Shown here: piece by piece, positions 37,610 to 39,619 of the stretch
Numbering within the stretch: the stretch's first letter is position 1
How the letters are laid out: each line of letters starts with the position of its first letter
Assembly (NCBI RefSeq): GCF_020217425.1
Contig: NZ_CP084090.1
Location: 2,728,001-2,792,000 of the forward strand
Length of the DNA: 64,000 nucleotides
From: Halomicrobium urmianum
Lineage (GTDB): Archaea; Halobacteriota; Halobacteria; Halobacteriales; Haloarculaceae
Reading direction: 5' to 3'
Notes under the pieces: model-generated
Database searches by the model: none
Seen by the model: the letters and a program-made list of their open reading frames with translations, nothing else
What the model was told of the DNA's origin: nothing
Position numbers and translations under genes: made by a program

Positions 37610-38296
37610 ATGGGAACGCCGCTGGACTCGCGCGAGGCGCAGGCCGAGGAAGTGATCGACCGCCTCCACGAGGAGTACCCCGACTCCACGATCTCGCTGA
37701 ACTTCTCGAACCGGCTGGAGCTGCTCGTCGCCGTCGTCCTCTCCGCGCAGTGCACCGACGAGCGCGTCAACGGGGTCACCGCCGACCTCTTCGAGACGTA
37801 CCAGTCCGCCGCCGACTACGCCGACGCGGACGAGGAGGAGCTGGCCGAGGACATCTACGGCATCACCTTCCACAACAACAAGGCCGGCTACCTGACGGAG
37901 GCCGGCCAGATCATGGTCGACGAGTACGACGGCGAGGTCCCCGACACCATGTCCGGGCTGACCGACCTCCCCGGCGTCGGCCGCAAGACCGCCAACGTCG
38001 TCCTCCAGCACGGCCACGATGTCGTCGAGGGCATCGTCGTCGACACCCACGTCCAGCGGCTCACTCGCCGGCTCGGGATCACCGAAGAGGAGCGCCCCGG
38101 GGCCATCGAGGCGGACCTGATGCCCGTCGTTCCCGAGACGGAGTGGCAGCAGTTCACCCACCTCCTCATCGACCACGGACGCGCCGTCTGCACCGCCCGG
38201 AATCCGGAGTGCGAGGAGTGCGTGCTCGCCGATCTGTGTCCCTCCGCGAAGATGGACAGCGACGTCGACCTCGCCGCTGGCGAACCCTGGGGCTAG
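37610..38296 (+). CDS. nth: endonuclease III (Nth)
   Basis: 228 residues. DNA glycosylase/AP lyase: LELLVAVVLSAQCTDERVNG, ITFHNNKAGYLTEAGQIMVD, the HhH motif LTDLPGVGRKTANVVLQHGH with the catalytic Lys in LPGVGRKTA and Asp in IVVDTHVQRLTRRLGI, and the [4Fe-4S] loop C-x6-C-x2-C-x5-C (CTARNPECEECVLADLC). Removes oxidised pyrimidines. The gene converges on a repeat-filled spacer. Confidence 0.95.
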   Translation: MGTPLDSREAQAEEVIDRLHEEYPDSTISLNFSNRLELLVAVVLSAQCTDERVNGVTADLFETYQSAADYADADEEELAEDIYGITFHNNKAGYLTEAGQIMVDEYDGEVPDTMSGLTDLPGVGRKTANVVLQHGHDVVEGIVVDTHVQRLTRRLGITEEERPGAIEADLMPVVPETEWQQFTHLLIDHGRAVCTARNPECEECVLADLCPSAKMDSDVDLAAGEPWG

Positions 38297-39130
38297 GAAC
38301 CGTCGTCTCGACGTTTTCGGTCGTCCCTGTCGCTCTCGGCGCTGTCACTGTCTGAGGCGGTCTCAAATCGCTCTCGAGAACGGGAGACAACGCCCAGAAA
38401 GCCCTCGGCCCGCTCTCCTGAACCGCTACTGACGGCGACAGCGAGACGCCGAAAGCCCTCGGCTCGCTCGCGGGATCTGTGCGGGATATCCTCGCCTCGC
38501 TCGGATAGTGCCCGCGCACATCCCGCGACCGTGCCTCGCCCTTTCATCCACCGAAAGACTCGCTTCGCTCGTCTTTCGAGCCCTGTGCTCGAAAATCGAA
38601 GATTTTCGGCATGACGAGAGAGCGAAGCTCTCTCGAACCACCTCGCTCCGCTCGGCAGGACGCCAGGTCGCAACCGCAGCCCTGCCTTTCCCCGGGTCGC
38701 GCGATGAACGCGCTCCCGGCCGACCGCAGGCGCGCGCTGGCGCTCGTTTCATCGAGCGCCTGAGTAGTGCGAGGTCTTCGCGAGCGCAGCGAGCGAAGGC
38801 TCGTCAGAGCTTGCTCTGACGGTGGACGACGGAGCGAACGGAGTGAGCGACGGAGTCGGCTGGGGAGGACGTGGGACGGTGCGGTCCTGGCGGATGAAAG
38901 GGCGAGGGCCGCTCGCGCCGGAGGGTCGTCGCTGGGCGACCTCTATCCGAGCGCAGCGAGGATATGTCGGCCAGCGGCCGCGAGCGGGCCGAGGGCTTTC
39001 TGGTCGTTCGAAGTCGTTGCGGTCGTTCCAGAGAGCGGACCGAGGGCTTGCTGGTCGTTCTGTATTCGCCACGAACGGTATTTAATACCGTAAATGGTGC
39101 GAAATGTAATACAATGGTAGAAAATACCAC
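38297..39130. repeat. 834-base gene-free block with a four-part inverted repeat
   Basis: No gene seen on either strand. Left arm blocks: AGAAAGCCCTCGGCCCGCTC (38396-38415), GAAAGCCCTCGGCTCGCTCG (38451-38470), ATATCCTCGCCTCGCTCGGA (38486-38505), CTCGCCCTTTCATCC (38535-38549). Right arm, as complements in reverse order: GGATGAAAGGGCGAG (38892-38906), CTATCCGAGCGCAGCGAGGA (38943-38962), GAGCGGGCCGAGGGCTTTCT (38982-39001), GAGCGGACCGAGGGCTTGCT (39032-39051). The centre has short perfect hairpins: CGAAAGAC/GTCTTTCG, CGAAAATC-gaa-GATTTTCG, GAGAGAGC-gaa-GCTCTCTC and CGTCAGAGC-tt-GCTCTGACG. Confidence 0.65.
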
Positions 39131-39619
39131 CTACAGCACGTACCGAATCCCGAATCGGATCACACCCACGATATAGGCCAGCAGCCAGAAGATGACGTAG
39201 CCGAAGACGCCGATGCGCAGGCGGGAGCGCCAGTGGCCCATGCGCTCGCCGCCGATCTCGTCGAGCAGGACGTCCTGGTCGTAGTCGTTGTAGAGGTCGT
39301 GCTCGTACTTCGCGCGGAAGATGCGGACGATACCGGTCATGGCAAAGAGCAGCATGGCGTAGGCCTGGAGTCCGAGGACGGCGTGGATGGCGGAGAGGCC
39401 GCCGAACTGGTCGGGGAGGCGGGGCGCCATCCAGAACACGACGGGGACGGTCGTCAACACGAGCCCGGTGAGGACGAACTTCAGGTGGTAGACGAGCACG
39501 TCCCAGGTGACCGGCTCGGTCTCGATGATGTACCAGGCACCGTAGAGGAAGCAGGGGAGGCTGAGGGTCACGGCGACGAGCGCGATCGTAGCGACGACAC
39601 CCGTCGGCAGTCCCGGCAT
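39131..39619 (-). CDS. membrane protein near the halocyanin operon (DUF7321-type)
   Basis: 162 residues, four membrane segments: VVATIALVAVTLSLPCFLYG, LKFVLTGLVLTTVPVVFWMA, IHAVLGLQAYAMLLFAMTGI and IGVFGYVIFWLLAYIVGVIR. Histidines in VYHLKF and IHAV inside the helices could bind haem, as in small cytochrome-like proteins, but this is only a possibility. The family (DUF7321 as I recall) is found beside the bc1-like operon in haloarchaea, which lies 0.8 kb away on the other strand. Confidence 0.75.
   Translation of the reverse strand: MPGLPTGVVATIALVAVTLSLPCFLYGAWYIIETEPVTWDVLVYHLKFVLTGLVLTTVPVVFWMAPRLPDQFGGLSAIHAVLGLQAYAMLLFAMTGIVRIFRAKYEHDLYNDYDQDVLLDEIGGERMGHWRSRLRIGVFGYVIFWLLAYIVGVIRFGIRYVL

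Follow-up and report, generated by a model that had tools for sequence, protein, structure and literature searches.

The nth–DUF7321 interval

The stretch of Halomicrobium urmianum DNA analysed here (64,000 nucleotides, hereafter the window) contains the endonuclease III gene nth at 37610–38296 on the plus strand, with Pfam matches to HhH-GPD (6e-23) and EndIII_4Fe-2S, and a DUF7321 gene at 39131–39619 on the minus strand, with a match to PF24007 (1.5e-77). The two genes are convergent and flank a repeat element that lies outside both of them. No coding-like ORF is present between nth and the DUF7321 gene. The gap measures 834 bp in the window, whereas the aligned gene ends are only about 27 bp apart in three relatives, G001 (Halomicrobium katesii DSM 19301, of the same genus as the window), G002, and G003 (probably H. 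mukohataei). The empty site that the sequence-only reading proposed to look for is thus found. In a further genome, G004, the aligned ends are 169 bp apart. The short gap in G001–G003 implies that the window lineage gained an insertion or, less simply, that the others lost it. G005 (archaeon HArc-gm2, again of the same genus) and G006 have about 2.7 kb of apparently coding DNA between the two genes (G005:C11:453242-455926 and G006:C2:885624-888306), which replaces the short gap or repeat element.

The element consists of two long inverted arms. Local alignment of the left arm (38380–38552) with the reverse complement of the right arm (38889–39062) spans the whole arm and scores 79, against a mean of 16.3 (sd 2.9, maximum 30) in 1000 dinucleotide shuffles and a maximum of 34 in 637 control pairs of the same geometry from the rest of the window. 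The arms therefore do align, the point on which the sequence-only reading had made the repeat depend. Folding of the inverted repeat as single-stranded DNA gives z = -12.2. The four mirrored blocks that had been described are all present where they had been placed, complemented and in reverse order in the right arm. The block GAAAGCCCTCGG starts at 38397 and again at 38451 on the plus strand of the left arm, and its complements lie at 39033–39049 and 38989–39000. The block ATCCTCG..GCTCGGAT, at about 38488–38506, has its complement at about 38945–38963, and the block CTCGCCCTTTCATCC, at about 38537–38551, has its complement at 38893–38907.

The whole two-arm element occupies 38389–39060, aligns with itself in inverted orientation (38389–39059 against its own reverse complement, E 7e-45 by self-BLAST), and is common to the other copies in the genome. 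Its core comprises two palindromic units of about 100 nt, inverted around a centre of about 200 nt. The general layout of a unit is GAAAGCCCTCGG, an imperfect and variable palindrome, and CCTCGCCCTTTCATCCRCC, with a truncated unit outside each. Hairpin unit 1 (38451–38546, plus strand) is an imperfect palindrome that runs from GAAAGCCCTCGG to CCTCGCCCTTTCA and is followed by TCCACC. It was recognised by pattern match, fold, and covariation, and its RNA fold has z -4.8. The middle block, ATCCTCG..GCTCGGAT, is the loop part of the imperfect hairpin of about 100 nt that forms most of each arm. Hairpin unit 2 (38895–39000, minus strand) is inverted, was recognised by pattern match and alignment, and has an interior unlike that of unit 1.

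The two AAAGCCCTCGG units of each arm had been read as a duplication. They are indeed repeats, but each arm has one full unit and one truncated outer copy, which corresponds to the first 19 nt or so of the full unit with its leader. The left truncated copy (38397–38415, plus strand) is 95% identical to 38451–38469 as direct repeat D4, and the right one (39033–39060, minus strand) belongs to direct repeat D1, at 93%. Tandem truncated copies outside the units are common in other genomes too. The short hairpins reported for the centre are also present, but part of them form a separate dispersed repeat nested inside the element. This run of short hairpins (38548–38661, plus strand, 114 nt) has a solitary copy of 96% identity at G000:C1:870462-870575, G000 being the window's own genome. 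The element copies L010 and L013 include it, but L014 (2091 kb) does not. The remaining centre (38662–38894) has conserved motifs broken by variable hairpins, as seen by comparison with the centres of L010, L013, L014, and the G005 elements. Between the right arm and the end of the DUF7321 gene, just outside the arm, lies an AT-rich palindrome, CGCCACGAACGGTATTTAATACCGTAAATGGTGCG (39060–39115), which is possibly another small repeat.

Copies of the element and conservation of its hairpins

Two-arm copies occur at five loci of the own chromosome, near 1729, 1829–1830, 2031–2032, 2091, and 2766 kb, and single arms near 1507, 1928, and 2343 kb. The blocks might have been found singly all over the genome; their recurrences are mostly whole arms in the same paired arrangement. 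A pattern search detected 5 exact-end units in G000, 14 in G001, 10 in G002, 14 in G003, 113 in G005, and 99 in G006, and the control pattern, with the unit ends read backwards, gave 0 matches. Of the 391 genomes tested across the order, 55 have an exact-end unit, as do 23 of the 87 genera; these figures are lower bounds because exact ends were required. Pattern and BLAST searches that called for exact or near-exact ends underlie the genome-wide counts. Among the carriers named are Halosimplex, Halonotius, Haloparvum, Natronomonas, Halorussus, Halorubrum, Halapricum, and Saliphagus. The listing for G005 has 21 adjacent exact pairs, every one of them convergent (+ then -), with a spacing that is usually about 200 nt and reaches about 500. 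Phage records contain no match to the element, and a literature search for the strings GAAAGCCCTCGG and GTGTTCAGATAAG returned no relevant paper.

An inversion or duplication of intergenic repeats, of which the arms would be a relic, had been offered as one origin. Two unrelated intergenic repeats, joined in inverted orientation by a single local event, would suit the unlike interiors of units 1 and 2 and the truncated outer copies, which suggest local duplication. However, a pair inverted in this way, and composed of the same outer and inner parts, lies at five loci here and at many in sister genomes, and two adjacent exact units are always convergent. With the pair recurring in many genomes, the relic reading is not supported, and a one-off origin is extremely improbable.

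Relative to the arms, the centre of the G005 elements can lie in either orientation (L077 compared with L080 and L081), which suggests inversion via recombination between the inverted units. The centre of L080 also contains an insert of about 250 bp, another MITE-like element nested in the core, which has the ends TGCTCTGTAGGATCGC and is apparently flanked by an 8-bp duplication, TTTCAGTC.

The units are mostly 92–109 nt long and have the ends GAAAG..CTTTC, which were compared with IS6 elements only. The 212 distinct units include 167 non-redundant ones, in which a median of 65% of the bases are paired, compared to 45% with shuffled interiors. In 15 units of one interior class, 96% of the cells are paired versus 81.5% after shuffling, double changes are found in 17 of the 35 pairs, and the covariation score is 0.356 against 0.098 in shuffles. 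Slid controls score far lower, a comparison biased in favour of the hairpin by the derivation of its structure from the same alignment, and the shuffles and double changes are less affected. Pairing is maintained, whether the folded molecule is DNA or RNA.

The strong covariation and the stable fold could also reflect a function in RNA, as a structured molecule or as a cis-acting signal such as a terminator or processing site, with selection on the transcript maintaining the hairpins. No Rfam family scores above its gathering threshold, however, and presence and absence of the element vary among sister species. The inverted pairs lie between genes in convergent, divergent, and tandem orientation, so that a terminator of convergent genes was rejected. 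The ratio of G.U to A.C is 99:93 in the units and 73:81 in the SRP RNA positive control, and has no power to separate RNA from DNA. A role in RNA is improbable.

The unit ends are identical across families, while flanks, centres, and interiors vary. The unit occurs in elements with differing ends, namely with IS6 TIRs (L210, L230, L242), with flanks of another kind in G005, and with no recognised ones in G000. The fixed ends would be explained by a process at the level of the hairpin, either its recognition by a protein or movement of the unit itself.

The family is mobile in sister species

The two-unit core of the G001 and G003 elements lies between GGYRGTGTTCAGATAAG and the complement of that sequence (GGYRGTGTTCAGATAAG..CTTATCTGAACACYRCC). 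The G001 elements with IS6-family terminal repeats are 320–322 bp long, non-coding, and too short for a transposase. Five G001 copies (L097, L103, L104, L106, and L108) have exact 8-bp target-site duplications (TSDs), with the sequences TTCGCGCC, GTTTCTTT, TGCGGAGT, AGGTGCGC, and GTGCAGTT, and further exact 8-bp TSDs are readable in L109, L111, L112, and L284. For the empty-site test, the flanks were joined at one copy of the target duplication and then matched to the sister genomes. The sites of L106, L108, and L104 are uninterrupted in G002, with 96, 87, and 88% identity for the three. The L106 site is uninterrupted in G003 as well (90%), where other sites are occupied. The family is mobile and of MITE type, since its copies in sister species have transposon ends, 8-bp TSDs, and empty sites in relatives.

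The window's own genome has an IS6-family IS with the same two termini as the G001 and G003 elements (GGYRGTGTTCAGATAAG), plus 8-bp TSDs. Its transposase is 211 aa long (IS6 model NF033587, E 8e-59) and lies 289 bp from GTGTTCAGATAAG, a distance that is constant in forward copies. Because the ends are shared and the duplications are of the same length, the IS6 transposase probably mobilises the elements in trans. Some forms, L283 and L284, and L210, L230, and L242, have a single unit between ends that are the same or similar. In the two genomes richest in copies, G005 and G006, GTGTTCAGATAAG is absent, and a TIR and TSD search in 20 G005 elements gave nothing convincing. The lack of IS6 ends in these genomes calls for the assumption of another mobiliser or of long decay. 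The G005 copy L089 is absent from G006.

Origin of the window copy and related repeat systems

The window copy has no recognisable terminal repeats or target-site duplication, and no IS6 terminal repeat was found at 37.0–40.5 kb of the window. A TSD is not readable at this site because the sites of about 27 bp in the relatives have diverged too far. The non-coding, MITE-like mobile unit suggested by the sequence-only reading holds for the family, on account of its ends, TSDs, and empty sites, and the window copy fills a site that is about 27 bp in three relatives. As no such ends or TSD are recognisable in the window copy, the MITE reading is carried over to it from the relatives. The copy is best read as an old element that lost its ends or was moved by another transposase; its age is indicated by the missing ends and TSD and by the hairpin cassette nested in it.

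Haloquadratum has three kinds of transposase-free mobile repeats, which are MITEs, PATEs, and SMRs of about 110 bp (PMC3119063). Haloarchaeal MITEs, such as those of Haloquadratum (PMC3119063), are similar to the present elements in being non-coding, shorter than 500 bp, intergenic, and present in many copies. They also share terminal repeats as in a resident IS family and a target duplication of the length typical of that family. The G001 and G003 elements are MITEs by this definition. In contrast to other haloarchaeal MITEs, they contain two hairpin units as a conserved inverted pair, which is also found in elements with other ends, and the window copy has lost its ends and duplication. The copies form a family of MITE-type elements whose conserved hairpin core is unusual.

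The element in the window is probably old and decayed, a copy of a haloarchaeal mobile element of the MITE type that is non-coding and non-autonomous. An IS6-family transposase supplied in trans would bind the terminal repeats, and the bound element would be copied into intergenic DNA. The window copy may have arrived likewise or via another transposase, and would later have lost its ends. The arms would then have diverged, with hairpin interiors exchanged and unit ends kept. The strong conservation of the unit ends counts against plain MITE decay, which does not predict it.

A less probable account, and on balance an unlikely one, is REPIN-like: what replicates would be the hairpin unit, or else the inverted pair, and it would move as single-stranded hairpin DNA. 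The enzyme would read the fixed ends, and IS6-type MITEs would be merely one vehicle that the unit entered. In favour of this account, the same ends recur in many genera with different flanks, centres, and interiors, inverted doublets predominate in G005, the stem shows compensatory changes, and the unit is found with IS6 TIRs, with other flanks, and with none recognised. REPINs share the inverted-doublet layout with compensatory changes (PMC3116915). REPINs and BIMEs with RAYT (PMC3116915, PMC2817692) are also extragenic inverted palindrome doublets with conserved ends, about 100 copies, and a variable spacer with compensatory changes. However, the archaeal unit of about 100 nt is several times the length of a REP, and its ends are GAAAGCCCTCGG and CCTCGCCCTTTCA in place of a REP of 20–40 nt with a GTAG or CGTC tag. 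No insertion of the unit without surrounding sequence and no clean empty site at the unit level were seen, and the copies shown to be mobile here use IS6 ends. Five genomes gave 14 matches to Y1 (IS200/REP-type) transposases, and a unit lies within 1.5 kb of none of the 14. A link to IS605/RAYT was rejected, with no Y1 transposase beside any unit. As an archaeal counterpart of REPINs, the unit would be an independent, haloarchaea-wide hairpin replicon with a predicted enzyme that reads the fixed ends and moves it between MITE backbones, and with an interior that evolves freely while pairing; this is possible but doubtful.

Decay of a MITE-type element is the preferred reading for the window copy. 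Haloarchaeal intergenic regions are rich in palindromes, which are seldom annotated. For one large class of these palindromes, there is now an anatomy, a demonstrated vehicle in the form of IS6-type MITEs that make 8-bp target duplications, and a pattern by which to search for it. Fixed unit ends combined with covarying interiors suggest that the hairpin itself is the target of selection or repair. Such selection or repair is documented for bacterial REPINs, and the literature searched contains no case for archaea.

SMRs are the third system for comparison, and their mobilisation has been termed enigmatic (PMC3119063). SMR-A copies of Haloquadratum walsbyi are commonly >95% alike, have inverted ends that match no known IS, and insert into IS605 and PATE palindromes with no target duplication (PMC3119063). 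The unit resembles SMR-A in its size of about 100–110 bp, inverted ends, tens of copies, location inside other mobile elements, and unknown mobiliser (PMC3119063). It differs in its highly variable interior, as the 167 non-redundant interiors among the 212 distinct units are far from near-identical copies, and in its recognised hosts, which are IS6-type MITEs. The comparison with HqIRS42/43/55 is at the level of description.

Two other small repeats occur in or beside copies of the family. A palindromic repeat of about 82 nt, ATACGGACGGTTGTAGG..CCTACAACTTTCCGTAT, lies inside several MITEs of G001 (L110, L284, and L292) and resembles the Haloquadratum SMR category. A repeat of about 90 nt, CTATAGTAACAATTGAAA..TTTCAATTGTTACTATAG, is present in L285 and L292 of G001, with a variant in the 3' flank of L011 in G000. 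In the G001 copies, it is located inside the unit's own hairpin, and thus forms a small repeat within a palindrome.
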